Shown here piece by piece: positions 2,149-23,632 of a DNA stretch of 26,423 bases. The notes beneath the pieces are model-generated. The model did not search any database. It was not told the DNA's origin and saw only the letters and a list, made by a program, of their open reading frames with translations. Positions within the stretch are counted from its first letter, which is position 1. Each line of letters starts with the position of its first letter. The DNA comes from a virus. The stretch covers positions 1 to 26,423 of IMG/VR virus record IMGVR_UViG_3300045009_000577; one strand, written 5' to 3'. A program made the translations under genes and the position numbers.

Positions 2149-4289
2149 ATTTGATTATTGAATTGATTTTGATTATTTACAATATTTGAATAATCTGCAA
2201 ACTCTATAGTATTACCGGGAATCCCAGAACCGTAAACTCTATCTCCTGTTCTGTCAGACCCGCCGGTTCCTCCTGTATCTCCTCCTCCTGTACTTCCACC
2301 TGTTCCCCCACCGGTATTACCTCCTGTTCCATTACCACCACCAGTATTACCTCCTGTTGTAGAACATTCTAAATTGCCTATTTCTATATTAACACTAGTT
2401 ACTTTTCTACTTCCTAATTCTGTTTCATTGATAGTCATTGAGCCACCTCTATATTGATAAGTTTTATAGGAAGTCAGACCTGTAGTTAGTGTTGCTATTT
2501 GACCTACTATATCTATTTTTTGATATGTGTAAATAACTTCTCCTTGTCCGTCACATGGATGTAACGCATATATAGTTACATCTTTTCCACCAGAAGGTCC
2601 GGAACCACCACCGACTTGAAGACAACTAGTTATCCCTTCCGCTTTTCTAAGTGATGTAAATAAAGTAATTCCATTAACTGTCTTTAAAAATTCAGGATTT
2701 GATCCGTCCCAATAATAAAAACCCTGATTAATAATATTGAAATATATTTGATTTCTTAATGGCTCAACAGAAGTATAGCCAGGACCTTTACTAGGATCAC
2801 AAGAATAAACTTTCCAATATCTATTACCTGCTCCGGTACCAGTACCTGTTCCTGTGCCTACATTTATTGTAGTAGTGGTACTTGTGGTAGAAGTAGTACT
2901 TGTAGTAGAAGTAGTACTTGTAGTAGAAGTAGTACTTGTAGTATTTCCGGTACCTACATTTATTGTAGTTGTGCTTGTAGTAGATGTAGTACTTGTATTA
3001 TCTTTTGGACATTCAGGACAAATAGAATTAGTTCCGGATGCTCCAGTTGGTCCAGCAGGTCCTTGAGGGCCTAGCCCGCCAGGTTGACCATTCTGTCCGG
3101 GTTGTCCATTTTGCCCACTTGGTCCTGTTGGTCCTGTGTTACCAGGCTGTCCGATTGGTCCAATAGGTCCTGTTGGTCCAATAGGTCCAGCAGGTCCAGC
3201 AGGTCCGGGTTGCCCGTCCCTTCCATCTCTTCCATCTCTTCCAGCAGGTCCAGGTAATCCACTACCTCCACCAATTACATTCAATCCATCTTTACCATCT
3301 TTGCCAGGTCTTCCTTCAGAACCGCTAACAATTATAACAATAGGTTCCTTGTCTTCGCAGCAGTTGGACGGTATGTTGTTTATAATTGGAACAACAGGGT
3401 CAATAATGTTTCTTACTTTTTTCCTAACCGCAGGTGTCCATGATGAAGATAAATCAACACAATTTCCATTATTGTTAGTGTTTATAAAATAGTATGTATA
3501 TCCTTCTAATGGTCTTGCTCCAACTTCTGCAATCTTAACAAAAGTTCCTAATGGGTAAGTAGATAATTCAGAGAAATCTACTCGTTCAATAGATATTACA
3601 TCGTTATATGTTTTATTTCTCTCAAACATCATAACTTCCAATGTCTCGTTATTTGGAATAAGACATACAGAAATATCAGTCAATGCTTGTTCATTTGCTC
3701 CAATAAAATAGTTGAAATTTGCGTCGATTAATTTAGATATAACAAAGTCAGAAACAATTACTTTTTCAGGCCTAACAAAATAATACCCGGGGTCTACCGA
3801 TAGACTTGTTCCTTGTAATTTATAGCTTATAGGAACGTATTTTATTCCTTTGAGATTTACTTTTAATTTTGGTTTGTTTGCTTTACTTATATCTTCGGAG
3901 GAGTATCTATTTTTATTCTGTCCTTCGATTTCAGGAATTCTTTCATTTATTGTTCCAAATATTACTTTTTCTACATTTCCCTCATATCTTCTAATAATCT
4001 TATAATTTATGTAATCATCATTTGAGTCAGATGTCAATATAACATTTTTAGGGATTGGAAGAGTTATTTCTAATTTATTATTTACATTTAATGCATCTCC
4101 AATTTTTATTAATTCTTTAGATTCTGCCGTGGTAAATCTTCCAGACATATATTTCACAAACTCATCTACATGATATTGACCTTTATAGATGTCTCCATTT
4201 AAATAAGTAAATTCACCATTAGATAAATTAGGACCTGTTCTTCTATTATTAGGGTCAGATACTCTATGTATGTCTTTCTTTTCCTCCAC
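2145..4289 (-). CDS. Collagen-like tail/baseplate structural protein with Thr-Ser repeats
   Basis: A 714-residue protein starting at GTG 4289, which overlaps the TAG of the gene before it (TAGTG). The first in-frame ATG is near codon 48, so GTG is the likely start, although it is unusual here. Residues 1-320 form a globular head with a YLNGDIYKGQYHVDEF segment resembling a motif common in marine phage structural proteins. Residues 324-419 are collagen-like Gly-X-Y, rich in GPA/GPI/GPT and GRD. A CPECPKD cysteine pair follows, then residues 432-474 of TTS repeats carrying two INVGTG segments. Residues 489-640 form another domain (RYWKVYSCDPS... FYYWDGSNPEF), and a Gly/Thr-rich tail follows. 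The layout suggests a trimeric fibre-like appendage on the baseplate. No enzymatic domain is visible. Confidence 0.8.
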   Translation of the reverse strand: MEEKKDIHRVSDPNNRRTGPNLSNGEFTYLNGDIYKGQYHVDEFVKYMSGRFTTAESKELIKIGDALNVNNKLEITLPIPKNVILTSDSNDDYINYKIIRRYEGNVEKVIFGTINERIPEIEGQNKNRYSSEDISKANKPKLKVNLKGIKYVPISYKLQGTSLSVDPGYYFVRPEKVIVSDFVISKLIDANFNYFIGANEQALTDISVCLIPNNETLEVMMFERNKTYNDVISIERVDFSELSTYPLGTFVKIAEVGARPLEGYTYYFINTNNNGNCVDLSSSWTPAVRKKVRNIIDPVVPIINNIPSNCCEDKEPIVIIVSGSEGRPGKDGKDGLNVIGGGSGLPGPAGRDGRDGRDGQPGPAGPAGPIGPTGPIGPIGQPGNTGPTGPSGQNGQPGQNGQPGGLGPQGPAGPTGASGTNSICPECPKDNTSTTSTTSTTTINVGTGNTTSTTSTTSTTSTTSTTSTTSTTTTINVGTGTGTGTGAGNRYWKVYSCDPSKGPGYTSVEPLRNQIYFNIINQGFYYWDGSNPEFLKTVNGITLFTSLRKAEGITSCLQVGGGSGPSGGKDVTIYALHPCDGQGEVIYTYQKIDIVGQIATLTTGLTSYKTYQYRGGSMTINETELGSRKVTSVNIEIGNLECSTTGGNTGGGNGTGGNTGGGTGGSTGGGDTGGTGGSDRTGDRVYGSGIPGNTIEFADYSNIVNNQNQFNNQI
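2868..2996 (-). repeat. Thr-Thr-Ser minisatellite with two INVGTG modules
   Basis: Residues 432-474 are tandem TTS triplets. At DNA level the core is an 18-base unit (plus strand GTACTTGTAGTAGAAGTA) repeated about three times. Two near-copies of the segment encoding INVGTG border it, so a longer module was duplicated as well. The repeat is in frame, so unit gain or loss would only change linker length. Confidence 0.85.
3033..3320 (-). repeat. Collagen-like Gly-X-Y region (GPx/GRD type)
   Basis: Residues 324-419 of the 714-residue protein are Gly-X-Y triplets with one short break near GGGSG. Pro-Ala, Pro-Ile and Pro-Thr triplets dominate, with a run of GRD triplets near the start. In phage fibres such regions form trimeric collagen-like stalks. 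Confidence 0.85.
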
Positions 4290-8261: not shown

Positions 8262-10214
8262 TCAATTTAAAAAATTAACTTGAACTATTTTACTAAGGTC
8301 AACTAATTCATGAGATATATGAGCATAATTATCTTTATATAAATAAATTTCTAATTCTTTTCTTATGCAATCAGAATTAACTAATAATTTTTTCTCTACG
8401 AGCATAGAATCTTCTAATATAAATAAATTAGTATTAAGTAATTTGTTTATATCAGTATTGTATTTAAACTTATTCCCTACAATATACCAACCCGGCTTAC
8501 AGTTTTCTCTTATTATTAATATCAAATAAACTACATCTGAAATAATAGCTTGAGTTCTTTTACTTTTTATTATCGAGACTATTTTATAAAAATGACCATA
8601 ACATCTTCCATCAGGATATATGTAATTAATTGGTATGCTTATTAAATCTAATTCAGGATTATAGGGGATTCCAGGGTTTCCAGGTCCACCTGGTCCATTA
8701 GGCCCTCCAGGCCCTCCAGGTTGTCCTGGCGGATTACCTGCACTTGGTCCTTCCGAAGGTGAAGAATTACCTTCACCTTGTGGTGTTCCGGGTAAATTTG
8801 CAGGAGTACCATCTGGTTCTGTAGCATTTCCACCAACTTCGGGAGTAGGATTTGTATTAGTATTACTAGCACCTCCTAGAGTTCCTGGTAGTTTTACATT
8901 AATTGAATTTATATAAGAGTCGATAGATAAATCAGGTAAATTACTAGATGGATTACCTATTGAATTAGTTTCAGATTCAGAACCTCCGGGCATATCAGGA
9001 GAAGATGTTATAGAGCCTCCCACTTTACCGTCCATTCCGGGTATGCTATTTGTGAAGCCCGTAGGAGCAACTCTTGATAATCCATCAGTACCTAATTTGT
9101 AATTTGCAGGTAGTGCAGGAGGTTGTGGAAATCCTTGTGGACATCCTCCTTGCCAAAAAGGACTTATCGTATATCTTTGAAGAGCTAATATGCTAGGAAG
9201 CCATTGAGAAACTAAAGAGGGTCCAGCAGCTGTCGCTATTCCAGATATTCCGGCTACATTTTTTAATTGTTCCCATAACCCTTGAACAAAGTCAATAAGA
9301 TCATCAAAATCAACATCATGTATATCTGTAGTTAATCTTATTTTAGATGCAGATAAATATAATGTTTTTTTAGCAATTAGCATCATATCATCTTTTTTTG
9401 CCTGCATAACAATCCTATCCGCATTTGTAGCAGATTGAGCTTTACTAAAACTTGGAATACTAGATAAAGGAGCGGGACAAGCTCTTACAGAAACAAACCT
9501 AGATAATGCTTGATCAGAGGTCCAGTAAGTTGTGGAAAAATCATTTGCAGCATCCTCTATCGCATAAGATAATGAATCTTTTATTTGTCTATTTGGTATA
9601 TCTTTAACTTCGTTTGGTAATGGTTTATTAGGACCTAAAGGTTTATTTGCCACTATCGTTATTGGATTCCCTGCCTTACCGGATTTCCATGTAGGTTGAA
9701 CAGCATGTTGTGGATGATTTCCAGTTCCAATACCTAATCTAATTGAAGATCCTCCTCTCCCCGTAAAAGTTGTATCTCCTTCAAACGGTTGCATAAAATT
9801 AAAAGTGTAAGGCCTAGTAGGAAATGTATTACCGGGTTTTACAAATTCGGGTGCAGGTTTATTATCTTTAATTTTAGACCTATTAGTTACATGAGGGATT
9901 TGATTTATTACCGGATCATTCGTGGTATTTATCGGGAGAGGAATATAATACATTACTTTATCCAAATTGGGAGCATCTGTACCATCATATCCAGTTAACT
10001 CAAATACAACTACATGCTCTCCTTTTAATGGAATATTTCTAAAATTTGTAAATAAAGGTCTAGCATAATGAGCTCTAACATTACCTATTAATGATTCCGG
10101 ATGCAATTTTACTTTTACGGATCCTAGTGGAAGAATTCTACCTTTATCGTCTTTTTGATTTTTACCATACGCCTTAAAGGTCTCTATCACTTCCGCCGAT
10201 ACTAAATAGCCCAT
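8262..10214 (-). CDS. gp5-like baseplate hub/spike protein with OB-fold, collagen-like linker and extra C-terminal domain
   Basis: A 650-residue protein. Residues 1-95 read as the N-terminal OB-fold of gp5-type hub proteins (GSVKVKLHPES, IPLKGEHVVVFEL, MYYIPLPIN). Residues 140-190 carry FEGDTTFTGRGGSSIRLG and GNPITIVAN; residues 216-295 carry a YAIEDAANDFSTTYWTSDQ segment, then DRIVMQAKKDDMMLIAKKTL and SASKIRLTTDI, the short beta-repeat pattern of trimeric spike helices. No lysozyme domain is visible, unlike T4 gp5. After a low-complexity stretch (400-490), a Pro/Gly collagen-like linker (490-515) leads to a separate ~135-residue C-terminal domain of unknown function. The first 41 bases overlap the preceding gene in another frame. 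The OB/spike assignment is fairly secure; the role of the tail domain is unknown. Confidence 0.82.
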   Translation of the reverse strand: MGYLVSAEVIETFKAYGKNQKDDKGRILPLGSVKVKLHPESLIGNVRAHYARPLFTNFRNIPLKGEHVVVFELTGYDGTDAPNLDKVMYYIPLPINTTNDPVINQIPHVTNRSKIKDNKPAPEFVKPGNTFPTRPYTFNFMQPFEGDTTFTGRGGSSIRLGIGTGNHPQHAVQPTWKSGKAGNPITIVANKPLGPNKPLPNEVKDIPNRQIKDSLSYAIEDAANDFSTTYWTSDQALSRFVSVRACPAPLSSIPSFSKAQSATNADRIVMQAKKDDMMLIAKKTLYLSASKIRLTTDIHDVDFDDLIDFVQGLWEQLKNVAGISGIATAAGPSLVSQWLPSILALQRYTISPFWQGGCPQGFPQPPALPANYKLGTDGLSRVAPTGFTNSIPGMDGKVGGSITSSPDMPGGSESETNSIGNPSSNLPDLSIDSYINSINVKLPGTLGGASNTNTNPTPEVGGNATEPDGTPANLPGTPQGEGNSSPSEGPSAGNPPGQPGGPGGPNGPGGPGNPGIPYNPELDLISIPINYIYPDGRCYGHFYKIVSIIKSKRTQAIISDVVYLILIIRENCKPGWYIVGNKFKYNTDINKLLNTNLFILEDSMLVEKKLLVNSDCIRKELEIYLYKDNYAHISHELVDLSKIVQVNFLN

Positions 10215-10626
10215 CTTGTAATTCTTTATCTATGCCTGTAAATTCTTTTAATAAGTCATCATCCCCTTTTTGTAACATCTTTAATTCCGTCAATTCTTTT
10301 TGTGTTTCTAGAGATAATTCTTGAAGTAAATGCTCTTTTTCCTCCTCAGTTAAATTAAAATCACCATTAGATATAGACGATGCTCTACTATGCATTCTTT
10401 GTACAATAGCTGCCATTTTTATAAGTTGGTCATCATTTTTAACCATAACATCAAAAAATTCTTTAACAACAGGTAAAACAACAACAGCATCATTTATACT
10501 TTGTACAACTCCATCTAATCCTTTTAGCGTCTTATCTAATTCTTTCCCTCTTTTCTTTGAGTTACTGTAAATCTCTTTTAATAGATTTGACATGCTAAAA
10601 TCATCAAATAATTTTATATCATCCAT
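10174..10626 (-). CDS. Unknown helical protein upstream of the gp5-like gene
   Basis: A 150-residue, mostly alpha-helical, charged protein (FDDFSMSNLLKEIYSNSKKR, then VVLPVVKEFFDVMVKNDDQL, then FNLTEEEKEHLLQELSLETQ). I do not recognise a family. It has no signal peptide and only a weakly hydrophobic patch at about 46-62 that is too short for a clear membrane span. It begins one base after the sigma gene's stop and its last 41 bases overlap the gp5-like gene. That overlap and its fixed place next to the hub suggest a structural, chaperone or tail-length-related helper, but this is context only. Confidence 0.75.
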   Translation of the reverse strand: MDDIKLFDDFSMSNLLKEIYSNSKKRGKELDKTLKGLDGVVQSINDAVVVLPVVKEFFDVMVKNDDQLIKMAAIVQRMHSRASSISNGDFNLTEEEKEHLLQELSLETQKELTELKMLQKGDDDLLKEFTGIDKELQDGLFSIGGSDRDL

Positions 10627-10627
10627 A

Positions 10628-11287
10628 TTATTTTTTCATGTATTTATTAAATTGTAAATCAAAATCATCTTTAAATATTTTTACTATTTTAGTGATTCTA
10701 TTAGTATTAGTCATAGGGATGTTAGATCGTTCTCTTATTAATACATATAATGCTTTCTTATTAAATGCATATAAAGATTTTCGATGTTTAAAGATGTCTA
10801 TAATAGAATCTGCAATAGATTTATCTAAATTGTTTTTAAATGTATGTCTAAATTTTTCATATAAATCATCTGTCCATAAATTCATAAAGTCATCTAAAGA
10901 TTCTTTATAATGTTTAATCACCACCTCATTTATTATATCTCTTTCTTCATCTATCTCCCATAACTCTGCTTCTCCTACTCTATTTTTATAACCTTTTTTA
11001 TTCTCCATAATAAGATAATTTATGGCAATACGGGTAAAAAAAGAATAGGCTTTAGCTCTTTCTTCATTATATCGATGCATTTTTATAGTCAACATGGAAA
11101 CTAATTGACAATGTAAATCTTCGTAAGGTAAATCAATGTACATGTATTTACCCATGTTTATTAAATTCTCCGCTAGTTTACAAAATGCAGGATAAATGTT
11201 AGTTTCATATATTATATTTTTTTCTTTTTGTGAGTTTGAATTATTATAGTTTACTATAGAATTTTGTACGGTTTCATCAAAATACAT
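10628..11287 (-). CDS. Late transcription sigma factor, T4 gp55-like
   Basis: A 219-residue protein, slightly longer than T4 gp55 (185). Residues 30-110 match the pattern of gp55-like phage sigma factors: YPAFCKLAENLINMGKYMYI, then YEDLHCQLVSMLTIKMHRYN, then KAYSFFTRIAINYLIMENKK, corresponding to sigma region 2 (core binding and -10 recognition). The remaining helices (KEKFRHTF-like, RKSLYAFNKKALYVLIRERS) could include a C-terminal clamp-binding or region-4-like part, which I cannot confirm. In T4, gp55 with gp33 and the sliding clamp directs host RNA polymerase to TATAAATA late promoters. Here it sits just upstream of the hub and wedge genes it may control. Two tandem TATAAAAT octamers lie 11-26 bases before its ATG. 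Confidence 0.75.
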   Translation of the reverse strand: MYFDETVQNSIVNYNNSNSQKEKNIIYETNIYPAFCKLAENLINMGKYMYIDLPYEDLHCQLVSMLTIKMHRYNEERAKAYSFFTRIAINYLIMENKKGYKNRVGEAELWEIDEERDIINEVVIKHYKESLDDFMNLWTDDLYEKFRHTFKNNLDKSIADSIIDIFKHRKSLYAFNKKALYVLIRERSNIPMTNTNRITKIVKIFKDDFDLQFNKYMKK

Positions 11288-11355: not shown

Positions 11356-11658
11356 TTATTTTTTTTCCGAAGTGAAAAGTAAATCTAAATCTTCTATTGT
11401 CTTACTTAACTCTTTAAAAACTACCCCTACTTCGTCATCTGATTCAAAAGCTCCAATCCTATCTAAGGTTCTCATTGTTGCTAGTGAATCTCTTACTCTT
11501 GCTCTTATTGATAATATTACATTAAAATAATTATCATTTTCTTTCTCTAAATCATTTAAGTACTTTTCTGTTTCTTTTAGTAATTTTTCATTTTTAGAGA
11601 AATTTATTATGGCTATATATAAAAGTATTACGTTTAATATTATTGATGCTATTAACAT
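11356..11658 (-). CDS. Small membrane-anchored coiled-coil protein
   Basis: A 100-residue protein with an N-terminal hydrophobic helix (ASIILNVILLYIAIINF, about residues 4-20), then a long charged coiled-coil-like region to about residue 75, and a tail RTLDRIGAFESDDEVGVVFK that resembles a motif found in small hypothetical proteins of large marine phages (AFESDDEVG). A single-span inner-membrane protein with a cytoplasmic coiled coil is likely. It starts 11 bases after the HD-like gene and is the last gene before the terminator at 11322-11347. No specific function can be assigned. Confidence 0.75.
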   Translation of the reverse strand: MLIASIILNVILLYIAIINFSKNEKLLKETEKYLNDLEKENDNYFNVILSIRARVRDSLATMRTLDRIGAFESDDEVGVVFKELSKTIEDLDLLFTSEKK

Positions 11659-11669
11659 GTATTTATTTT

Positions 11670-12269
11670 TTATGGAGAAATCATTTGTCTTGCTGCGTCT
11701 GTGGAAGCCATAATGATTGATCCCAATGTTACTTTTTTAGTTTCTGGGATTTGTAAATATTTGGATGCAGTGTCATCGTATAGCCCCGCCTGAATTTTTA
11801 TTGATACGTATTCATTGTAAGATAAAGTCACATATTTCTGTAAAAGATATAAAGATTTATCGGAGGCTACTAGAAATTTAGCTCCGTCATTAAATTTATA
11901 TCCTCTGTTTAGATTTTTTCTATGCCAATCCGAAGTTTCTTCTACAAAGAATGGATCCTCGTCAACTCCACATAAACCAATAGAATTAAATAAAGCAGCA
12001 ACTGTAAACTCCTCTAAATTAAAATCTAAAGCAATTTCTGTAGACTTATACAATTTGCATAGACCTAACCCAAAATTATAAGTGTTAATTGCAAAATGTA
12101 GTAAACCTCCTTCGTAGCAGTAATTGTTGTCCAAAAACATAGAAGCAGGCGAACTTTTTAATGTAGTTTCATAGTCGGTTAATAACTTCAAGAACTTTTC
12201 TTTTCTTTCGCCTACTACTCGCAATTCTAATAAATCCGTAAATTCTTTAAACAACTCTTGTGATTTCAT
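11670..12269 (-). CDS. HD-domain-family-like protein with degenerate active site
   Basis: A 199-residue protein. The order of landmarks matches phage HD-type phosphohydrolase-like proteins: YEGGLLHFAINTYN (52-65), EEFTVAALFNSIGL (86-99), DWHRKNLNRGYKFN (114-127), SLYLLQKYVTLSYNEYVSIK (139-158), GLYDD (162-166) and ASTDAARQ (188-195). In active members the second segment reads LFHDIG, giving the metal-binding His-Asp; here it is LFNSIG, so both ligands are replaced. The His in the first segment also appears one position off the usual place, and the usual His before the final Asp is missing. It may be a non-catalytic nucleotide-binding or scaffold protein. Family membership rests on motif reading and is moderately sure; loss of the HD pair is directly visible. 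Confidence 0.65.
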   Translation of the reverse strand: MKSQELFKEFTDLLELRVVGERKEKFLKLLTDYETTLKSSPASMFLDNNYCYEGGLLHFAINTYNFGLGLCKLYKSTEIALDFNLEEFTVAALFNSIGLCGVDEDPFFVEETSDWHRKNLNRGYKFNDGAKFLVASDKSLYLLQKYVTLSYNEYVSIKIQAGLYDDTASKYLQIPETKKVTLGSIIMASTDAARQMISP

Positions 12270-12292: not shown

Positions 12293-12379
12293 TTATTTAT
12301 TATTTTTGTTTATTTTGTGCCATTCTTTTATTTGAGCCGGGGACATATTTCTTAACTCCGATTCAGAGAGTTTTTTTTT
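12293..12379 (-). other. Possible -1 frameshift site and alternative C-terminus
   Basis: Nine A residues (12379-12371 on the minus strand) are read in frame as GTA AAA AAA AAC, which contains the canonical -1 slippery heptamer A-AAA-AAC. Without slippage the protein ends six codons later at 12352. After a -1 shift the frame stays open for 25 residues (LSESELRNMSPAQIKEWHK then INKNNK) and ends at TAA 12295-12293. This fills most of an otherwise long 82-base gap in a tightly packed operon. A sequencing indel in the homopolymer, or transcript slippage, would give the same protein. Confidence 0.5.
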
Positions 12380-13863
12380 ACATTTGATTTTGGTTCTCTA
12401 TAATTTCTACTTTTTGCTTGATTTGTAGGAGGAGGGAGTATAATTTCTTCTTCTTGCTCACCTGAAGAAATATCATAATCCTCATCTATAGGTTCAAAAG
12501 TAATATCTTCAACCATTTCTAATTCCTCTTCATTTATACTTGAGCTATTAAAACTACTAATTACTTCCGTTTTTATTTTAGGTTCGTAAATATCAAATGA
12601 GTTAGTATCTTCATAAACTTCATTATCTATTTGTAGAGATCCTGCCATAACAGGAATATCAATAAGTTCATTTGTAGATTCTATACTATTATTTTTTACC
12701 TTATTCTTACTTCCTGTAGGTCTACCTCTTCTTTTTGGTTTTGGTAAGTCTACAAATTTAGACCATGAAAAAGGACCTTGTAAATTATGTGGATTTGTAG
12801 GTACTATTGAACCAATTATAGGCTCTCCAAAATAACTATTATTTTCTACAAAAGAACTAGTAAATTTTACTTTTTCATCAAAGTGTTTAATATACTCTGC
12901 ATCTTCTGGTGTCAAATCATCTGAATAAAATTCCGCTAAAGGGCTTCTCTTTTTTTGTTTTTCTGGGGTAGGATTTTCTTCAATAGTATTATTATCTTTC
13001 TCATTATCTTCTAATATTACTTTTTGAGTATAGTGATAAGCAGTCAAAAGAGCGATAGCTAATGGGTCTGCTAAAAATACGATAACTAATAAAAACCAAA
13101 ATAGTACTTTATCTAAACTTGTATTAGTTACTTCAGAAAGGTAAATGAGAGGACCTAATTCTACAGCTACATCATTACTTGACTTTATTTCAATAATCTT
13201 TGTCTCATAATAAAAGATAGAATCGGAGATATTTGTAATGTCCACATATACTCCATCTCTCCTATTTTCCATTTTTCCAATGTCAGAATTAAGACCCTCA
13301 ACTTGCTTTAAATAATCTTTTCTGGTAGATGCATTTGATCTTGTTGATGTTCTTCCTCTACTATCTGTATAAACATCTTTAGAATCATTCATCATCCCGG
13401 AAGATGTCGTATTTCTTTGTAATCTTGTTTGAGCAATGTCTGAAATTATTTGCTTGTATTCATTTTGTAAGTCATTTTTCTTATCCTCGAAGAATTTCTT
13501 TTTCTCTTCAACCAATGCGACTTCTGATTTAGAAGCCATTAATTTATTCTTATTTTCAGTATATGCTTGAGATAGGATACCATAAACTCCAGAAGATGTT
13601 ACAAAGATGACAAGAATCAAAAAAATTAATCCTCCTACTTTATATCCGAATGTCAATTTATCCCAATATATATGAAGGAATGATGCGATTACAAGTTTTG
13701 ATACTTCTATACCGGCTCCTAAAAGAACAATAGCTATTCCTGCTCCGGCGAAAACTTGCGCTAGTCCTTTAACTGAAAAAAAACCTACGACAGATGCAAG
13801 AAAAATAGCGCAGGTTAAAAGAAGATATGATATTCTCTTTTGTGTTTTAATGTCTTTGGTCAT
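12352..13863 (-). CDS. Polytopic membrane protein with coiled coils and an AT-hook
   Basis: A 503-residue protein. Hydrophobic spans lie at about 12-33, 37-65, 76-98 and 252-279. The loop between spans 3 and 4 (103-230) is charged and predicted coiled coil (SEVALVEEKKKFFEDKKNDL; DYLKQVEGLNSDIGKMENRR). The C-terminal ~220 residues are acidic and low-complexity, apart from a basic AT-hook-like motif KPKRRGRPTGSKNK at residues 375-388. AT-hooks bind the minor groove of AT-rich DNA, so the cytoplasmic tail could tether the AT-rich phage genome, or RNA, to the membrane. It is the first gene of its unit, with a good promoter directly upstream. A 9-A tract near the stop may allow frameshifting to a longer C-terminus. 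No family name is assigned. Confidence 0.8.
   Translation of the reverse strand: MTKDIKTQKRISYLLLTCAIFLASVVGFFSVKGLAQVFAGAGIAIVLLGAGIEVSKLVIASFLHIYWDKLTFGYKVGGLIFLILVIFVTSSGVYGILSQAYTENKNKLMASKSEVALVEEKKKFFEDKKNDLQNEYKQIISDIAQTRLQRNTTSSGMMNDSKDVYTDSRGRTSTRSNASTRKDYLKQVEGLNSDIGKMENRRDGVYVDITNISDSIFYYETKIIEIKSSNDVAVELGPLIYLSEVTNTSLDKVLFWFLLVIVFLADPLAIALLTAYHYTQKVILEDNEKDNNTIEENPTPEKQKKRSPLAEFYSDDLTPEDAEYIKHFDEKVKFTSSFVENNSYFGEPIIGSIVPTNPHNLQGPFSWSKFVDLPKPKRRGRPTGSKNKVKNNSIESTNELIDIPVMAGSLQIDNEVYEDTNSFDIYEPKIKTEVISSFNSSSINEEELEMVEDITFEPIDEDYDISSGEQEEEIILPPPTNQAKSRNYREPKSNVKKNSLNRS
12700..12741 (-). other. AT-hook motif in membrane protein
   Basis: Codons 375-388 encode KPKRRGRPTGSKNK, with the RGRP core flanked by basic residues on both sides, the canonical AT-hook layout. 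It lies in an otherwise acidic, disordered cytoplasmic tail more than 90 residues after the last membrane span. Confidence 0.7.
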
Positions 13864-15756: not shown

Positions 15757-18700
15757 ATGCTAATTTACAGGCCTACGATTATTTCTGGATCAGGATATTA
15801 CTCCGGGTCTTTCGATGGAGACGGGTCTAGGTTATATAACATAAGATCCTCCTCTTATGCTCTAACTGCATCTTACGCTCTAAATGGAGGAGGTGGTGGT
15901 GGCACAGGAGCTGGCTTTCCTTTTTCCGGAGCAGCAGTAATAACAGGATCTTTGACCGTTTCTGGTTCTTATGTTGACTTTTCCGATGTAGTTTATATAA
16001 CAGGTTCTAGATTAAGAGTTTCTAAATTAAATGTATTATCTGAATTAACTGCGAGTGGACTTAAATATCCGAAGATAGATGGTATTGCTGGTCAAATTAT
16101 AGAGACAGATGGAGCTGGTAATTTGTCATTTGGTAATATTGATACTATTGTAGAGAATGTAAAAAACGTATCTGGATATACCTTGTATAAAGGAACGCCT
16201 GTACATGCAACGGGTTCCGGAACATCTGGTAATGTTGTTGGAGTTATTGCTGCTAGTGCTTCCGTAGCTTCTACAATGCCTGCAACTTTTATATTAGCTC
16301 AAACATTAGCAGCAGGAGCTGAAGGTCTAGGTATAATATCTGGATTAATAACAGGAGTAAATACATCTGCCTTTAAAAATGGAGAAGTTATATATGTTGG
16401 AGCTAGAGGGGGATACACTAATGTTGCACCTACTGGTTCAAATCTAGTACAAAATTTAGGTATTGTAACTAAAGTACACCCTACAAATGGCGGAGGTGTT
16501 GTTCTTGGTGCGGGTAGAGCAAATGCAACTCCTAATTTATTAAACGGTCAAATTTTTTACGGAGTAGGAAATAAATCTGTAGCTAGACCTTTGAGAGATG
16601 TTATATCAGGAAGTGCTTTTGTTTTCTCCGGATCTTTTAAGGGAGATGGTAGTGGATTGACAAATGTTTCAGGAGAAAAAGGGCAGAAAGGAGAGGCGGT
16701 AGCGTATATTTATACATCTTCTTTACAGGGAGTTGTAGTTAGTGTAAATCATAATTTAGACCTTGCTTACCCCGTTTACAATATATATGACAATTTAGGT
16801 AATGAAACAATACCAAAGTCTTTTTCTATAATAAATAATAACACTGTAGAAATAGATTTCGGAGTTCCTTTTACCGGCTCTCTAACCATATCTTCCGGGG
16901 ATAAAGGATTAAAAGGAGACAAAGGAAATTTCAAAGGGCAAAAAGGAGAGAAAGGAGATAATAAAGGAAGTAAAGGAAATATAGGACCCAAAGGAAATAT
17001 TGGACAAAAAGGAGCTACAGGAAATAAAGGACAAAAAGGAGATATAGGACAGAAAGGTTCTGTAGGTTCAACTGGATTAAAAGGTTCTATCGGTGAAAAA
17101 GGATATAAGGGAGATTTAGGATATAAAGGGGAGATAGGACTAAAAGGTCAAAAAGGAGAAATAGGAGCTTCTGGAAGTAAGGGAAATGCTAGTACAGTAC
17201 AAGGACCTAAAGGTATAAAGGGAGATATAGGCCCTTCTGGTAGTAAAGGTAATGCTAGCTCTATCCCAGGACCTTTGGGACCAAAAGGACAAAAAGGTGA
17301 ACTTGGTTATAAAGGAAGTAAAGGTAATGCTAGCTCAGTCCAAGGACCTTCGGGAAGTAAAGGCAATAAAGGAGATAATGGTTCTCTATTTACGAGTCCG
17401 TTATCTGGTTCTTTAGTTACTCTTAATCATGGATTAAACAATAAGTACCCAGTATTTGTAGTTTATGATATTACAGGTTCCGCAATATTCCCCAACTCTT
17501 TTGTTTCTGTAAATTCTAATACATCCCAAGTTTCTTTTGTTGATACTTTTTCCGGCTCTATCAGTATAATGTCAGGAGGACAAAAAGGAGTAAAAGGAGA
17601 AAAAGGAGAATTTAAAGGAGAAAAAGGAACAAAAGGACAAAAAGGATTAAAAGGTGAAGGTACTTTATATACAACTTCTATTAGTGGGTCTATAGTAACT
17701 ATAAATCACAATACAGGACATTTATATCCTATATTTTCTGCTTATAATAAAAATAAAATAGCTGTTCAACCAAAAACCGTACTTGTTATTGATTCAAATA
17801 CGTTACAAGTTGATTTTGGAACTTCTTTTAGCGGGTCTATTTCCGTCGGAAGCGGAGGATTAAATGGATTAAATGGATTAAAAGGAGAGAAAGGAAATTT
17901 CAAAGGAGAGAAGGGAACAAAAGGACAAAAAGGAAACAACGGTCTTTTTCCTTTTTCTGGAGCAGCTTCTATAACCGGGTCTTTAAGCGTAACTAATTCT
18001 AGTTCATTTTCTCATGTACTTCCTAAACAAAATAATTTATATGATTTAGGAAGCTCAAGTAATAGATGGAGAGATTTGTACTTAACAAGTGCCTCGATAT
18101 ATTTAGGCAGAACAAAAATAACATCTGGCCCAAATGGTAAGATATCTTTTGTAGATTCTCAGAATCCAAATCAAAAAATAACAGGAAATTATACAGGATC
18201 TTTCTCCGGTAGTTTTAACATATCAGGAATAAGACAAGGATCAAATGAAAATAAAGTTTTACTTTTAGATAGCAATAATAACATTATATATAGAAATAAT
18301 TTAGCTCTCACGGGATCTAAAGGAAATAAAGGAGATATGGGCCCATCGGGTTCAAATGCAGGAATTCAAACTTATACAAATCCATCTAATAATAGAGTTA
18401 TAACATCAGTTTCATCAACAGAAATAAATGCTGAATCAAATTTAACTTTTGATGGCTCTATTTTGTCTGTAAATTCTAATTCAGCAATAAAATTACCTTC
18501 TGGAACAACTAATCAAAGACCTGTAAGCTCATCAGCTGGTATGATTAGACTAAATTCCACAAACAGTAGTGTGGAATCCTATATCAGTGGATCTTGGCAC
18601 TCGGTACCATCTTTTCCGGGGCTTAATTCTCAAGTTACTATTATAGGTGGTGGAAGTAGGGGTGGTGTCGGAATTGGTTACTTCTCTATAGGTTCTGGAG

Positions 18701-19320
18701 GAGGAGGAGGAGGAGGAGGAGAGGTAATAAATTTAGATTATTTGTTGTATCCGGGTAGTTATACAGTTATAGTTGCAGCAGGAGGTGGAAATTCTTCTTT
18801 CGGAAATATAATAGCCACCTCAGGAAGTGTTGGAGGAAATGCATCAGTGTATATTGGCGGATCTGGTGGAGCGGGTAGCTTAACAAAATCAACAGGTGGA
18901 CCCGGAGGTAGCACAAGTGGAGATTTTTATCCATACGATATTTCATTTCCCGGAGTTGGATGCACTGGGCTCTTCTCTGTTTGCACTGGGGATACGAGAG
19001 CTGGAGGAGGAGGAGGAGGAGGAGCTAGCACTGCTAATCAACTCAATGGAAACACGATATACTCTGGACCGGGAGCAATAGGTTCTTCTGGCGGTGGTGC
19101 GGGAGGAGATGCTTATGTAAATGGAGGCAATGGAGTTGGTAATACAGGAGGAGGAGGAGGAGGAGGAGGTAGTCAAGGAGCTATAGGAGGTAACGGAGGT
19201 AGTGGTATAGTTGTTATAAAATACGTGGGAAATCCTAAAGCAACCGGAGGTACTATAAGTACTTCAAACGGTTATACAAAACACACATTTACTATGACGG
19301 GAACATTAGTAGTTTATTAA
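15757..19320 (+). CDS. Large tail fibre with Lys-rich collagen stalks and polyglycine-rich tip
   Basis: A 1187-residue protein. The N-terminus (RPTIISGSGYYSGSFDGDGS) is the anchor shared with three other fibres here. Residues 108-256 form a domain with VKNVSGYTLYKGTPVHATG and AAGAEGLGIISGLITGVNTS, common in phage fibres. Three ~65-residue sandwich modules (317-381, 544-608, 637-701) alternate with Gly-X-Y stalks (382-543, 609-636, ~703-727) whose Y or X positions are very often Lys (GQKGEKGD). A LYDLGSSSNRWRDLYLTSAS motif follows at 761-780. Residues 957-1187 form a glycine-rich tip with three runs of 7-8 Gly and an ending GGSGIVVIKY, resembling polyglycine-sandwich adhesins such as those at the tips of some T4-like long tail fibres. 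Likely the main receptor-binding fibre. An AAAGG may serve as a ribosome site. Confidence 0.85.
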   Translation: MLIYRPTIISGSGYYSGSFDGDGSRLYNIRSSSYALTASYALNGGGGGGTGAGFPFSGAAVITGSLTVSGSYVDFSDVVYITGSRLRVSKLNVLSELTASGLKYPKIDGIAGQIIETDGAGNLSFGNIDTIVENVKNVSGYTLYKGTPVHATGSGTSGNVVGVIAASASVASTMPATFILAQTLAAGAEGLGIISGLITGVNTSAFKNGEVIYVGARGGYTNVAPTGSNLVQNLGIVTKVHPTNGGGVVLGAGRANATPNLLNGQIFYGVGNKSVARPLRDVISGSAFVFSGSFKGDGSGLTNVSGEKGQKGEAVAYIYTSSLQGVVVSVNHNLDLAYPVYNIYDNLGNETIPKSFSIINNNTVEIDFGVPFTGSLTISSGDKGLKGDKGNFKGQKGEKGDNKGSKGNIGPKGNIGQKGATGNKGQKGDIGQKGSVGSTGLKGSIGEKGYKGDLGYKGEIGLKGQKGEIGASGSKGNASTVQGPKGIKGDIGPSGSKGNASSIPGPLGPKGQKGELGYKGSKGNASSVQGPSGSKGNKGDNGSLFTSPLSGSLVTLNHGLNNKYPVFVVYDITGSAIFPNSFVSVNSNTSQVSFVDTFSGSISIMSGGQKGVKGEKGEFKGEKGTKGQKGLKGEGTLYTTSISGSIVTINHNTGHLYPIFSAYNKNKIAVQPKTVLVIDSNTLQVDFGTSFSGSISVGSGGLNGLNGLKGEKGNFKGEKGTKGQKGNNGLFPFSGAASITGSLSVTNSSSFSHVLPKQNNLYDLGSSSNRWRDLYLTSASIYLGRTKITSGPNGKISFVDSQNPNQKITGNYTGSFSGSFNISGIRQGSNENKVLLLDSNNNIIYRNNLALTGSKGNKGDMGPSGSNAGIQTYTNPSNNRVITSVSSTEINAESNLTFDGSILSVNSNSAIKLPSGTTNQRPVSSSAGMIRLNSTNSSVESYISGSWHSVPSFPGLNSQVTIIGGGSRGGVGIGYFSIGSGGGGGGGGEVINLDYLLYPGSYTVIVAAGGGNSSFGNIIATSGSVGGNASVYIGGSGGAGSLTKSTGGPGGSTSGDFYPYDISFPGVGCTGLFSVCTGDTRAGGGGGGGASTANQLNGNTIYSGPGAIGSSGGGAGGDAYVNGGNGVGNTGGGGGGGGSQGAIGGNGGSGIVVIKYVGNPKATGGTISTSNGYTKHTFTMTGTLVVY
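16900..17946 (+). repeat. Lys-rich collagen-like stalk segments
   Basis: Three Gly-X-Y stretches (16900-17385, 17581-17664, ~17863-17937) separated by sandwich modules. Triplets GQK, GEK, GDK, GTK and GNK dominate. Three tandem copies of GSKGNAS plus a short tail occur within the first stretch. This basic chemistry contrasts with the neutral GPA/GPT collagen of the protein at 2145-4289. Confidence 0.85.
18697..18720 (+). repeat. (GGA)8 microsatellite in fibre tip
   Basis: Eight perfect GGA codons encode Gly981-988 in the polyglycine domain. Two further tracts follow in the same domain. Such triplet tracts can gain or lose units in frame by slippage. Confidence 0.9.
19003..19023 (+). repeat. 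(GGA)7 microsatellite in fibre tip
   Basis: Seven perfect GGA codons in the same glycine-rich domain, after a segment with two cysteines (VGCTGLFSVCTG). Confidence 0.9.
19147..19170 (+). repeat. (GGA)7-GGT microsatellite in fibre tip
   Basis: Seven GGA codons and one GGT encode eight glycines, the third tract of the polyglycine-rich tip. Confidence 0.9.
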
Positions 19321-19331
19321 AAAATTATTTT

Positions 19332-19757
19332 ATGGCACATTTCGCACAAATAAATGAAAATAATAAAGTTATAAATATTGTTGTCGTTTCTGATATTGAC
19401 TTACAAAGTGGTCTTCATTTAGATATAGAAGAATTAGGAGTTCAATACCTTAAGTCTCTTGTAGGAAACGATACAAATTGGGTAAAAACATCCTATAACA
19501 CTAAAGGCGGCATACATTATAACCCGATAACAAATAAACCAAACGAAAATCAATCAAAAGCGTTTAGAAAAAATTATGCTCAGTACGGATATACTTACGA
19601 CAATCAAAGAGATGCTTTTATTCCTCCAAAACCATACCCATCTTGGATACTAAATGAATTCTCTTGTTTATGGGAACCTCCTATACCCTATCCTAATGAT
19701 GGTAATCTGTATGAATGGAATGAAGACACTAAATCATGGGATTTATACACGCCTTAA
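19332..19757 (+). CDS. Conserved phage protein with PPKPYPSW motif
   Basis: A 141-residue protein. Landmarks match a conserved small protein found in many cyanophages and other marine T4-like phages: MAHFAQINENNKVINIVVVS at the start, TNWVKTSYNTKGG, KAFRKNYAQYGYTYD, RDAFIPPKPYPSWILNE, LWEPPIPYPNDG and a C-terminal YEWNEDTKSWDLY. The biochemical role is not established; the beta-rich, Trp/Pro-rich makeup and its place directly behind a fibre gene (11 bases) suggest a small tail or fibre accessory protein. It appears complete, with an A-rich leader and no Shine-Dalgarno. Confidence 0.8.
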   Translation: MAHFAQINENNKVINIVVVSDIDLQSGLHLDIEELGVQYLKSLVGNDTNWVKTSYNTKGGIHYNPITNKPNENQSKAFRKNYAQYGYTYDNQRDAFIPPKPYPSWILNEFSCLWEPPIPYPNDGNLYEWNEDTKSWDLYTP

Positions 19758-19769
19758 ACATAAAGTAAA

Positions 19770-20225
19770 ATGGATTTATATTTTCCTAACATAATTACAG
19801 GTTCCGGGTATTTCTCTGGTTCTTTTATTGGGGATGGCTCTCAATTATCCGGGGTTACGTCATACACGAATACAGATACATTAAACTATATAAATTCTAT
19901 AGGTGTATTATCCGGTTCTTTACCAGCAAATATAATATCAGGCAGTGGGACTAATTCTTACATTCCAAAATACATAGGATCTAAATACATAGGAAATAGT
20001 ACAATTCAACAAGTAGGAAATAATGTAAGAGTTACAGGAAGTCTACAGATAACAGGTTCTGTTTTAGCAGAAACCTATTTAGCAAGTAAAATATTCTACA
20101 GGAATGCAGTAACAATTAGTTTTAATTACACTATACCATCATCAGAAAATGCTATGAGTGCAGGTGATATTTATATAAAGAGTGGATCTACTGTGACGGA
20201 AAATGGTAATTGGTCAATCGTATAA
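19770..20225 (+). CDS. Short tail-fibre paralog
   Basis: A 151-residue protein with the shared fibre anchor (FPNIITGSGYFSGSFIGDGS) followed by SYTNTDTLNYINSIGVLSGS, a segment also found in the fibre at 22893. A GSLQITGSV motif near residue 95 is typical of phage fibre shafts. The C-terminal ~45 residues are a small domain ending GNWSIV. It is much shorter than the other anchor-bearing fibres, so it may be a minimal tip-bearing fibre or a reduced copy. It is co-oriented and tightly packed (12 bases after the previous gene, 9 before the next). Confidence 0.75.
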   Translation: MDLYFPNIITGSGYFSGSFIGDGSQLSGVTSYTNTDTLNYINSIGVLSGSLPANIISGSGTNSYIPKYIGSKYIGNSTIQQVGNNVRVTGSLQITGSVLAETYLASKIFYRNAVTISFNYTIPSSENAMSAGDIYIKSGSTVTENGNWSIV

Positions 20226-20234
20226 TACAAATAG

Positions 20235-20834
20235 ATGAGTTCAAAATTAAAAGTAGATACAATAACAAACCAAAGTGAGAGTCAAACATTGATGTCTAAT
20301 GGTGTAATAACAGTAGGAAATAATGTATTAGAGGATTTTACATTACTTTGCGATGGAGGTTCTTACGTTGGAAAAAATGGAACATTCACATCTCAAAATG
20401 TTACTTCTCAATATTCTATTACATCAACTTATACTGATTTAAATGGTTCTTCCATATCATATTTACCTCCCATCGGCACTACATGTGTCGTGTATTCTTT
20501 TCACTATACTCTATATTGGCAAGGTACTAATGCTCATTCTATATCTCACGCTAAATTTTTTATAGATGGAGTTGAAGTAGTGTTCTCAAGATTTTCCCAC
20601 TCTGCACAATACTTAGAATCTTTGCTTACTTTCACCTGGCCTATTTTTATTGGGGGGATAACAAACAATAATACAGGAAGACAATCTACATGGACAACCC
20701 AGAAAACATTAAAATTGCAAATGAGAGAATATGGAGCATCTAATAACATGGATGCACACGGAACTGTCTATTGGGATGGAGGAGGAGGAAATCAATTTCA
20801 CATGCCATCTATAAGCATAAAAGCAATAAAATGA
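20235..20834 (+). CDS. Small tail/receptor-binding protein, STLKVD-type N-terminus
   Basis: A 199-residue protein. It begins MSSKLKVDTITNQSES, a form of the short N-terminal peptide (M-S/G-x-L-x-V-x-K-I) shared by the next three genes and common on marine phage structural proteins. The rest is a beta-rich domain with aromatic residues (VVYSFHYTLYWQGTNAHSIS, LLTFTWPIFIGG, GTVYWDGGGGNQFH) that looks like a jelly-roll or carbohydrate-binding fold. Its stop overlaps the next start (ATGA). Probably a surface-exposed tail tip protein; no enzymatic motif was seen. Confidence 0.65.
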   Translation: MSSKLKVDTITNQSESQTLMSNGVITVGNNVLEDFTLLCDGGSYVGKNGTFTSQNVTSQYSITSTYTDLNGSSISYLPPIGTTCVVYSFHYTLYWQGTNAHSISHAKFFIDGVEVVFSRFSHSAQYLESLLTFTWPIFIGGITNNNTGRQSTWTTQKTLKLQMREYGASNNMDAHGTVYWDGGGGNQFHMPSISIKAIK

Positions 20835-21388
20835 GTACATTAATTGTAGATAAAATAACATCATTAAATAATAACATAACAATAGATGGAAATCTAAATG
20901 TTAGTGGATCAATTAATGTAAATGGAACAAACATCATTACTCCATTAGCTAACGAGATAGTTCAACAAGTATATGTTCAAACTTATAATCCAAATCACAT
21001 AACTGTTACATCTACATCTGAAGTAGCATTATCCACAACTATTTCAATTACTCCAAAATATTCAAATAGCATTATAAGAGTTGAATTTTATTCTACCATG
21101 ATGTACGGAGCAGCTAACGCAATAGTAGCAGCATTATACAGGAAAATAGGAGCAGGATCATTTACATCTATAATTGCCATAACTCAAACAAATCCTTTAA
21201 CTTATTATGGCTGGTTTTATCATACTAGTAGTTGGGGCCCTTATAAAGCTATATATTTTGATTCACCTGCAACAACGCAACAAGTTACTTACGAATTAAG
21301 ATACCGAAACATATCAACTACAGCAACAAATTATTTAGTTCATGCTACACAATATTATGGTTGGATATTAACAGAAATAAAAGTATAA
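20831..21388 (+). CDS. Small tail/receptor-binding protein paralog 1
   Basis: A 185-residue protein from ATG 20831, which overlaps the previous TGA. A longer frame exists upstream from 20771, but that extension lies inside the previous gene and is basic and unlike any neighbour, so it is rejected. N-terminus MSTLIVDKITSLNNNITIDG, then a NVSGSINVNGT strand pair, then a C-terminal domain: SITPKYSNSIIRVEFYSTMM, IVAALYRKIGAG, YGWFYH, and the ending QYYGWILTEIKV. It is clearly related along its whole length to the next gene, so the pair arose by tandem duplication. Confidence 0.75.
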   Translation: MSTLIVDKITSLNNNITIDGNLNVSGSINVNGTNIITPLANEIVQQVYVQTYNPNHITVTSTSEVALSTTISITPKYSNSIIRVEFYSTMMYGAANAIVAALYRKIGAGSFTSIIAITQTNPLTYYGWFYHTSSWGPYKAIYFDSPATTQQVTYELRYRNISTTATNYLVHATQYYGWILTEIKV

Positions 21389-21389
21389 T

Positions 21390-21953
21390 ATGGGAAATAC
21401 AAGTTTAAATAAAATAGACCCATTATATAATAACACCTTAAATATAAAATCAAATATTAATTTATCTGGTTCGGTATCTTTAAATTCATATAGCTTAAAT
21501 AAATCATCTCCCGGAGAAATAGTACAAGTAAGATATGTTCAATCTACAAGTCCCACTCATATAGAGACAACAACTACTAATGAAGCCATTCTTGATTTAA
21601 CCGTTTCTATAACACCAAAATATAAAGACAGTACTATAAAAGTAGAGTTTAATTCCTCGATGATGCACGGAGGAAATTCCGAAGCCATAGTTGTAGCCTT
21701 ATATAGAAAAATAGGAAAAGATGTCTTTTTTCCTATATTACCTATAAATGGTTCTGGCCCCTTAACTATTTATGGCTGGTTTTATGATTCTAACACATGG
21801 AGAAATATGGAAATACCTTATTTTGATATGCCTAATACTACAGAGCAAGTTACTTATCAAATAAGATATAGAAAATGGGGTGGAACAATCGTAAATTATC
21901 TAGTACATCAAACAATGTATTATGGGTGGATATTAACTGAAATAAAATCATAG
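21390..21953 (+). CDS. Small tail/receptor-binding protein paralog 2
   Basis: A 187-residue paralog of the preceding gene: the same order of SITPKYKDSTIKVEFNSSMM, IVVALYRKIGKD, YGWFYD, EQVTYQIRYR and MYYGWILTEIKS. The N-terminal anchor is more diverged (MGNTSLNKIDPLYNNTLNIK). It starts one base after the stop of paralog 1. Divergence is concentrated in the loops between the conserved strands (for example after ALYRKIG and after GWFY), as expected if loops contact variable receptors. Confidence 0.75.
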   Translation: MGNTSLNKIDPLYNNTLNIKSNINLSGSVSLNSYSLNKSSPGEIVQVRYVQSTSPTHIETTTTNEAILDLTVSITPKYKDSTIKVEFNSSMMHGGNSEAIVVALYRKIGKDVFFPILPINGSGPLTIYGWFYDSNTWRNMEIPYFDMPNTTEQVTYQIRYRKWGGTIVNYLVHQTMYYGWILTEIKS

Positions 21954-21955
21954 AA

Positions 21956-22516
21956 ATGGGAACACTTAGCGTAAACAAATTACAAGCTCAAGTAGGTAGC
22001 AATATAGAATTAACAGGTAACATGGTAGCATCCGGGGCGATAACTGACAGCCATGCTAAAGTTGTTCAATATCTATATGCTATTAGCGGTCCCGCACGTC
22101 AAACAATAAGTAGCCTAACCCCTGTTACTATAAGCGGATTATCATTAACGATTACTCCAAAATATTCAAACAGTTTAATTGTTATAGAAGGCGTAATTCT
22201 TAGCTCTAATACTCACGTATCTTCGTATGGGGTTTTCAAGGATGGTGTCGCTACTGTGTCTACTACTGGACAGACAAATTCTAACGAGCCCAATATGCAA
22301 GTAACTAATTATATAGGAAGTGCTACTACTGATGAACTATGGACAATTCCTATTAGACATCATGAAATATCTTCTACTTTACTTGCTAGAACCTATGATA
22401 TTAGAGCTACGGCAGGATGGTCCGGAACTGCTTATGCTCTATACATAAATAACAGGTCATCTAATGATATGGCAGGATTTAGTTATATGATTGTAAAAGA
22501 GATAAAAATAAGCTAA
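21956..22516 (+). CDS. Small tail/receptor-binding protein paralog 3
   Basis: A 186-residue protein, more distant member of the same series. N-terminus MGTLSVNKLQAQVGSNIELT, with GNMVASGAIT matching the GNLNVSGSIN strand pair of paralog 1. The C-terminal domain keeps LTITPKYSNSLIVIEGVILS and ends YMIVKEIKIS, but the middle differs (VFKDGVATVSTTGQ, TIPIRHHEISS). The sequence fits a beta-sandwich head. Same orientation, with two bases separating it from its neighbours. Confidence 0.7.
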   Translation: MGTLSVNKLQAQVGSNIELTGNMVASGAITDSHAKVVQYLYAISGPARQTISSLTPVTISGLSLTITPKYSNSLIVIEGVILSSNTHVSSYGVFKDGVATVSTTGQTNSNEPNMQVTNYIGSATTDELWTIPIRHHEISSTLLARTYDIRATAGWSGTAYALYINNRSSNDMAGFSYMIVKEIKIS

Positions 22517-22517
22517 C

Positions 22518-22889
22518 ATGAAATATCAAATAGAACATGCTTTAAAAATATTATCTCCGAATGCTCAATATAGTATAATAGGAGACGATTATGAAAATAT
22601 ATATTGGATTGATGAAAATGAATATAAGCCCTCTATAAATGAAATACAAAATAAAATAGAGGAATTACATGTAGAAGAACCTATGAGATTACTTCGCATT
22701 GAAAGGAATAAATTATTGGCAGATGTAGATTGGGAAGTTATAAAATCAATTTCGAGAGGTGAGCAAATAAGCATAGAATTATCCACTTACATGCAGGAGT
22801 TAAGAGATTTACCCAATAACTCAAATCCAACATTAGACAATACTTATAATTTAGACATGTCATCTGTAAATTGGCCAATAAAACCTTAA
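22518..22889 (+). CDS. Tail fibre assembly chaperone-like protein
   Basis: A 123-residue protein. The C-terminal half matches the phage tail-assembly-chaperone pattern (Phage_tail_APC/XkdW-like): RIERNKLLADVDWEVIKSIS, then a helix ending MQELRDLPNNSNP and a final VNWPIKP. The N-terminal half (YSIIGDDYENIYWIDENEYK, then SINEIQNKIEEL) is a small beta region plus helix, also usual in these proteins. Such genes normally sit beside fibre genes and are thought to help fibre folding or attachment. The family's exact activity is not well established. Confidence 0.75.
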   Translation: MKYQIEHALKILSPNAQYSIIGDDYENIYWIDENEYKPSINEIQNKIEELHVEEPMRLLRIERNKLLADVDWEVIKSISRGEQISIELSTYMQELRDLPNNSNPTLDNTYNLDMSSVNWPIKP

Positions 22890-22892
22890 TAA

Positions 22893-23612: not shown

Positions 23613-23617
23613 GTAAA

Positions 23618-23625
23618 TATAAAAT
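23618..23625 (+). promoter_or_regulatory. Possible late promoter octamer TATAAAAT
   Basis: The same TATAAAAT octamer as upstream of the sigma gene lies 7 bases before the last fibre's ATG, in a 20-base gap after the previous gene. One base off T4 late TATAAATA. AT-rich background makes chance likely. Confidence 0.25.
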
Positions 23626-23632
23626 TTAAAAA

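Follow-up and report, generated by a model that had tools for sequence, protein, structure and literature searches.

A phage membrane-protein gene with a conserved C-terminal tail encoded out of frame behind a poly(A) run: a probable case of programmed transcriptional slippage

RESULTS

The membrane-protein gene and its surroundings

The window, that is, the whole stretch of 26 423 nt analysed here (virus record IMGVR_UViG_3300045009_000577), carries on its minus strand a membrane-protein gene, followed by an HD-type phosphohydrolase-like gene and three further genes of a shared operon (Table 1). As described previously from the sequence alone, a slippery heptamer, A AAA AAC, lies shortly before the stop codon of the membrane-protein gene. 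Behind the run of nine A's (A9) the zero frame reads S L N R S and stops, so that the protein ends in KKNSLNRS, and the −1 frame stays open for 25 residues. The positions given earlier for these features proved correct, and so did the shrinkage of the intergenic gap: the distance to the ATG of the next gene (12269) is 82 nt when measured from the zero-frame stop but 23 nt when measured from that of the tail. A separate small gene for the tail was rejected, since no ATG precedes the conserved SESELRN in the tail frame, where the sole ATG encodes the M of NMS.

Table 1. Features of the membrane-protein locus in the window and zero-frame tails of distant orthologs
Feature	Position	Strand	Basis, match or locus
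Membrane-protein gene, zero frame, 503 aa	12352..13863	−	ORF list
A9 run, proposed slippage site, inside GTA AAA AAA AAC	12371..12379	−	direct reading
Heptamer A AAA AAC, −1 phase, alternative (ribosomal) slip site	12370..12376	−	direct reading
Zero-frame stop TAA	12352..12354	−	direct reading and ORF list
−1-frame tail LSESELRNMSPAQIKEWHKINKNNK including stop (codons 12296–12370, stop 12293–12295)	12293..12370	−	direct reading; kept in 20/20 records
Conserved core of the tail, 17 codons, LSESELRNMSPAQIKEW	12320..12370	−	clade A alignment, pN/pS, HMM match
Basic stretch KPKRRGRPTGSKNK in linker, putative AT-hook	12700..12741	−	direct reading
Next gene, HD-type phosphohydrolase-like	11670..12269	−	PHROG phrog_28876, E 1.4e-4
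100-aa gene of the shared operon	11356..11658	−	no family match
219-aa gene of the shared operon	10628..11287	−	no family match; query for clade B search
150-aa gene of the shared operon	10174..10626	−	no family match
Zero-frame tail ILSPSQMRNMSSQAIKEYLQDQ			L084 (three more contigs with small changes)
Zero-frame tail ELTPNQIKNMSHEAVQNYLKSVTKS			L163
Zero-frame tail NLTPNQIKNMSHESIRRYISKNTT			L164, L165
Zero-frame tail DLSPEQIRNMSHEAVQNYLKNKNN			L166
Zero-frame tail ELSNSQKRNMTAFQIHQSKKKDS			L177

No Pfam or PHROG family matched the membrane protein. The sole basis for the name 'AT-hook', which the preliminary description had attached to it, is a KPKRRGRP-like string; the putative hook lies in a basic stretch that is identical across seven aligned sequences save for one edge position (K or V). 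Homologs of the core occur in 13 annotated phage records, and the core family is widespread in large phages (at least 587 of the 600 stretches that came up as candidates in a scan of viral sequences). The tail gave no match among the annotated phages, and a scan of genome contigs returned 65 stretches, none of them a relative. A Foldseek search against viral models gave five matches at E ≤ 0.001, all unnamed or uncharacterized and with TM-scores below 0.4. The baseplate wedge protein of the window is nearest to that of Microcystis phage Mel-JY01 (50%) and then to that of Flavobacterium phage immuto (42%), and the window therefore belongs to a contractile-tailed phage. Elsewhere in the window (2145–4289 and 15757–26422), large structural proteins with collagen-like GxP repeats are predicted, and the same regions hold long arrays of GSGSF.GSF.GDGS-type repeats.

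The out-of-frame tail is conserved as protein in close relatives

A protein search with N-terminal and central patterns returned 14 viral contigs, and a DNA pattern for MSPAQIKEW returned 19, namely those 14 and five more. Together with the window, these 19 IMG/VR contigs make up clade A (20 records, 10 haplotypes). Eight of the haplotypes came from the N-terminal and central pattern search, in which the tail was not used, and the remaining two (L045 and L252) were also found independently of the tail. The membrane gene of the window is identical to that of a 142.6-kb contig, G001 (locus L010).

The run measures A9 in 19 of the 20 records and A11 in one (contig 3300021165); A10, the length that would bring the tail into frame, occurs in none. 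The tail, LSE[SA]ELRNMSPAQIKEWxxxNK, is present in all 20 records and all 10 haplotypes, its portion LSE[SA]ELRNMSPAQIKEW being constant, and the zero-frame endings diverge (KKNSLNRS, KKNFPNRN, KKNSLRQN and others). Of the variable sites in the first 54 nt of the tail, 13 of 18 leave the amino acid unchanged when read in the tail frame, the corresponding figures for the two other frames being 2 of 16 and 0 of 17; when variable sites were placed at random, 4.4 were synonymous on average, and 13 was reached in none of 20 000 trials. The 17-codon core has a pN/pS of 0.01 in the tail frame, versus 3.2 and an undefined value elsewhere, and the value was again 0.01 when only sequences from the tail-independent pattern search were used.

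All 10 haplotypes have GTA or ATA as the codon ahead of the lysines, whose last base lengthens the run from eight A's to nine. This choice of wobble base is a weak argument for a selected A9, because the two codons are common (in G001, GTA makes up 48% of Val codons and ATA 52% of Ile codons) and the haplotypes are related. In one record (contig 3300008117, locus L011, 2035–3556), the membrane gene is broken after about residue 160, unlike in the other members of clade A, either by a lesion or by an assembly error. Read locally, L011 and L024 have A9 and the tail at −1 despite the broken upstream frame.

In distant orthologs a similar tail is either encoded in the zero frame or absent

Orthologs were read at 58 of the at least 79 loci listed in one scan and at 64 of at least 80 in another. 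In at least nine contigs, corresponding to seven distinct gene ends, a similar motif closes the zero frame (Table 1); the orthologs concerned are 33–36% identical in the core. We scored the resemblance of these tails against a control made up of the C-termini of 631 naive ORFs from four phage contigs. The scores of the clade A tail with the zero-frame tails of L084 (55), L166 (38) and L177 (40) were reached by none of the 631 C-termini, and the score of 31 obtained with both L163 and L164 was reached by eight. Likewise, an HMM of the zero-frame tails had the clade A tail as its top match in the six frames of the window and G001 (iE 0.014). The suggestion in the preliminary description that the real C-terminus may be longer than annotated is thus supported on two sides, by the close records, in which the −1 tail is kept and the zero-frame ending varies, and by the distant orthologs with their zero-frame tails, contrary to the outcome named there as a refutation, namely homologs closing at the zero-frame position and showing no conserved tail.

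The gene order of the tested zero-frame-tail loci is that of the window (membrane, HD-like, 100-aa and 219-aa genes), the HD-like gene being the same neighbour in the tail-bearing orthologs, and several of them also share the 150-aa gene and a large gene behind it. In the sequence examined around the tail-less L049, L053 and L167, no neighbours of the window type were found; at L128 the HD-like and 100-aa neighbours are kept and the tail is absent. The homologs from isolates that were translated, immuto P0001 and Mel-JY01 P0002, are without the tail.

The membrane gene is present at 256 of 322 loci. Distinct gene ends followed by 330 nt or more of sequence numbered 152, and sorting them by the frame of the tail put 7 in the zero frame, 15 in minus one and 2 in 'plus one' (the A11 record and L011/L024), with 128 tail-less. 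These figures are no prevalences, as the HMM had been trained on these tails and some loci had been fetched by tail patterns. Most core homologs lack the tail, and the core can therefore work without it. A run of at least nine A's lies near the end in 5 of the 128 tail-less gene ends.

A second clade with an out-of-frame tail

A search with the 219-aa operon protein led to syntenic relatives, with the membrane gene in 36 of at least 78 loci; these and a second search, which enlarged the set, gave 12 contigs with five site types, referred to here as clade B. Their zero frame stops after 330–363 aa, just behind an A10 run. The run is exactly A10 in all 12 contigs, and A11, the in-frame length, is found in none, while the sites differ from one another in their flanks, in codon phase and in the base behind the run (G, T or C). 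The −1 frame goes on for 76–104 residues beyond the stop and ends in ALLTP[DE]EFxxMTD[DE][DE]IKxWY. Over ungapped blocks of five of the six rows (L327 was dropped as a near copy of L262), the pN/pS of the extension is 0.19 in the −1 frame versus 1.1 and 4.0 in the others.

The clade B end scored 41–51 with the clade A tail in four comparisons, each score being reached by none of the 631 control C-termini, and its scores with the zero-frame tails of L166, L163, L164 and L084 were reached by 0 to 4 of them; in the same comparison it showed no resemblance to the zero-frame tail of L177. Support from profile methods was weaker. In hhalign, the alignment of the clade B tail fell exactly on the motif, with an E of 0.003 but a probability of 10.5%. 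An HMM of zero-frame and clade B tails ranked the clade A tail first in G001 (iE 3.4e-4), one of clade B tails alone ranked it second (iE 3.6), and the clade B tail was not among the best three matches of the zero-frame or clade A tail HMMs in the six frames of G014 and G015. That the clade B tail is homologous to the others is suggested by where it lies, by its pairwise scores and by its predicted shape.

The clade B extension also holds a perfect or near-perfect inverted repeat, TGCACAATAAA ... TTTATTGTGCA, with a stem of 11–12 bp and a loop of 9 nt, at least 17 nt behind the A10 run. It lies at about 2610–2640 in L262, at the same place in L264 and some 40 nt past the run in L332, is weaker in L330 and was not seen in L260. 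It could be a stimulator or a regulatory element.

Core tree and structure models

In the core tree, which has 28 rows and leaves out clade B, the zero-frame-tail rows and the clade A rows each fall on one side of a branch, and clade A sits on a very long branch. Since the run of clade B stands at a different distance from the gene end, the out-of-frame arrangement may have arisen in two events, or in one that moved.

The AF2 model of L166 (28 sequences, mean pLDDT 68.5) has a helical core and a linker of poor prediction quality that includes a short beta hairpin; its tail forms two helices (364–368 and 372–383) with a pLDDT of about 80–90. For the clade B extension (6 sequences), the model with a mean of 66.7 shows a beta hairpin and two terminal helices (90–95 and 98–109), the other four models being at 53 or lower. 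The two models, both modest, agree in a small two-helix end module. From these relatives, the tail is predicted to form a short helix, a turn and a second short helix, carried at the tip of a flexible linker.

Long A runs are avoided in genes of related contigs

The number of A runs of nine or more expected in genes was estimated from synonymous-codon shuffles (200 for G001), genes being naive ATG ORFs. G001 has a single such run inside a gene, at the membrane-gene site, versus 15.4 expected (sd 2.6). Over the four related contigs of 142.6, 92.8, 78.9 and 70.8 kb, 1, 2, 1 and 2 runs were observed versus 15.4, 7.1, 5.2 and 6.6 expected, or 6 versus about 34 in sum, and four of the six are the membrane-gene site. 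In the 26-kb window by itself, avoidance was not visible (1 observed, 1.6 expected).

The second in-gene A9 of G002 (72740–72970, minus strand; L240–L244) sits in a short ORF, 13 nt from the end, and the next ORF begins just behind it in another frame. In G015 (64555–65493, plus strand; L339–L342) an A9 is found in a 312-aa ORF, 579 nt before its end.

DISCUSSION

The conservation of the run, of the out-of-frame tail behind it and of a related motif in the zero frame of other lineages can be read directly from the sequences compared here. That the tail is translated by recoding of one kind or another is very likely. As to the kind, the comparisons make programmed transcriptional slippage on the poly(A) run, yielding a short and a tailed form of the protein, the probable explanation. 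Faithful A9 transcripts would give the short form ending in KKNSLNRS. In a minority of transcripts, RNA polymerase would slip on the run and add one A, and the resulting A10 transcripts would encode the long form, ending in KKKLSESELRNMSPAQIKEWHKINKNNK. In E. coli and Buchnera, insertion of a single A is described as the usual polymerase slip in A/T runs, and the rate of slipping is reported to climb exponentially with run length (PMC5574713); a single-base insertion is also what the tails of both clades need. Rates of 15–55% are given for other bacterial poly(A) sites (PMC4256274).

The features by which slippage sites are judged point the same way. Both clades have a run of about nine or more A's in a coding region, and the frame behind it is conserved as protein (pN/pS 0.01 and 0.19). 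The length of the run is constant in clade B while its flanks and phase differ, and has one exception, A11, in clade A. Finally, other long A runs are avoided in the genes of the four contigs. Such avoidance is what polymerase slippage predicts; however, it could also stem from, or be increased by, replication slippage (PMC1088944). The A11 record in turn fits polymerase slippage and does not fit a −1 slip of the ribosome, although it is a single contig and its length could be an assembly error. Because the run keeps its length and none of the 32 records has an in-frame one, selection appears to maintain both C-terminal forms. We infer that slippage occurs, that it takes place during transcription and at a rate that leaves most copies in clades A and B without the tail, and that the tail serves as a docking motif on a flexible arm; zero-frame lineages would then display this motif on every copy. 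The odds lean slightly towards the broader proposal that the family uses selected slippage on a poly(A) of fixed length as a ratio control for the docking motif, set up at two distances in two clades, with other lineages making the motif on every copy.

Of the three options offered in the preliminary description, transcriptional slippage is thus favoured, though not proven, over its main rival, programmed −1 ribosomal frameshifting, which we consider unlikely. A ribosome slipping on A AAA AAC in clade A, or on A AAA AAG or A AAA AAA in clade B, would enter the same tail, and in clade A the junction would read KKNLSE, as against KKKLSE if the polymerase slips. The heptamer is indeed in phase in 19 of the 20 clade A records and in each of the five site types of clade B. 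Of 12 sites, 3 have a predicted stable structure in the 60 nt that follow (L262, z −5.0; L264, z −3.6; L027, z −3.25), and L332 has an 11-bp hairpin further downstream. On the other hand, the window is without stable downstream structure (z 0.85 and −0.37), the z values of eight other relatives lie between 0.5 and −1.5, and the distance of the clade B hairpin varies from about 17 nt in L262 to about 40 nt in L332. No SD-like string was found in the 25 nt upstream of any of the 12 sites, and the 127 gene starts of G001 (naive ORFs) show no SD enrichment, being A-rich upstream instead. In E. coli, A_AAA_AAC is described as far less prone to frameshifting than A_AAA_AAG (PMC5009743). The run is moreover kept at 9 or 10, beyond the six A's of the heptamer, and in the A11 record the tail lies in a frame that a −1 slip misses.

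Alternatively, the switch may operate on the DNA, with replication slippage toggling the run in the phage population from A9, with the tail off, to A10, with the tail on, and back. Long A runs are mutable, and one record does have A11. Such phase variation should nevertheless show both states, and none of the 32 records, which are consensus contigs, has the run length that would switch the tail on (A10 for clade A, A11 for clade B); we therefore reject this reading as very improbable. Harder still to credit is a non-functional tail, left over from an ancestral C-terminus, with the zero-frame protein alone being of importance. The 128 tail-less ends among the 152 sorted, a non-random sample, would agree with a dispensable tail, but the strong purifying selection in the tail frame of both clades contradicts it at the level of codons. 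A homopolymer error of sequencing or assembly, the true genome having A10 and the tail simply in frame, is suggested by the restriction of the data to metagenome contigs and by the single record of deviant length, but its chance is close to nil, as A9 recurs in 19 of 20 records from different datasets, a differently placed A10 recurs in 12 of 12 clade B contigs and no run in the 32 records is in frame.

The literature associates transcriptional slippage with secretion systems, IS elements and RNA viruses, and host-gene candidates have been detected by ribosome profiling (PMC10986495). A close parallel to the slippage proposed here is tssM1 of the Citrobacter rodentium type VI secretion system. 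Its product, too, is an inner-membrane protein; the zero frame of the gene ends shortly behind a poly(A), and slippage restores a C-terminal part present in relatives, giving two length forms, both of which are needed (PMC4256274). It differs in being a bacterial gene with A11, a measured efficiency of about 20–25% and a large C-terminal domain (PMC4256274), while ours is a phage gene with a tail of 25 to about 105 residues, predicted from sequence only. Shigella mxiE, spa13, spa33 and mxiA and Thermus dnaX likewise have an in-gene poly(A) and two C-terminal forms, and dnaX shares with clade A a run of nine; they are bacterial genes with measured slippage and unrelated products (PMC5009743, PMC1088944). 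In the comparative analysis of IS elements, the avoidance of 9A in genes and its conserved use at a few sites of mobile elements were deduced, as here; slippage there enters the second ORF of a transposase gene, in contrast to the short membrane-protein tail of the present case (PMC1088944).

No conserved slippage site in a tailed phage was found in the open-licence literature searched. The frameshifts of tail assembly chaperone genes are not known to involve long A runs. Phage lambda G-GT and other tail assembly chaperones resemble our case in that recoding close to a phage gene's end is conserved and yields two C-terminal forms, and differ in that the recoding is ribosomal and affects tail chaperone genes (PMC5009743, PMC10885494). 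In the methyltransferase gene of Campylobacter phage CPt10, slippage was proposed to rescue a poly-A frame lesion; that case is a frame-shift mutation in one phage, for which PMC2853527 reports no conservation. If slippage holds true for the present family, tailed phages could be added to IS elements and secretion systems in the list of those that exploit programmed slippage by the polymerase. At the practical level, a gene caller that halts at the zero-frame stop truncates the membrane protein and misses a conserved motif. The coexistence of lineages with a directly encoded tail and of two clades with the tail behind A9 or A10 would amount to a natural experiment on why a virus should favour a fixed ratio of the two forms.

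Two further loci deserve mention. L037, from the 735-kb uncultured phage LR756501, is a distant homolog in which an A9 lies close to the end of the gene and the −1 frame continues for 95 nt beyond the stop. At L164/L165, whose gene has its tail in the zero frame, an A9 run starts 127 nt before the end of the stop codon; slippage at this run would strip the tail from some of the copies, the reverse of the arrangement proposed for clades A and B.
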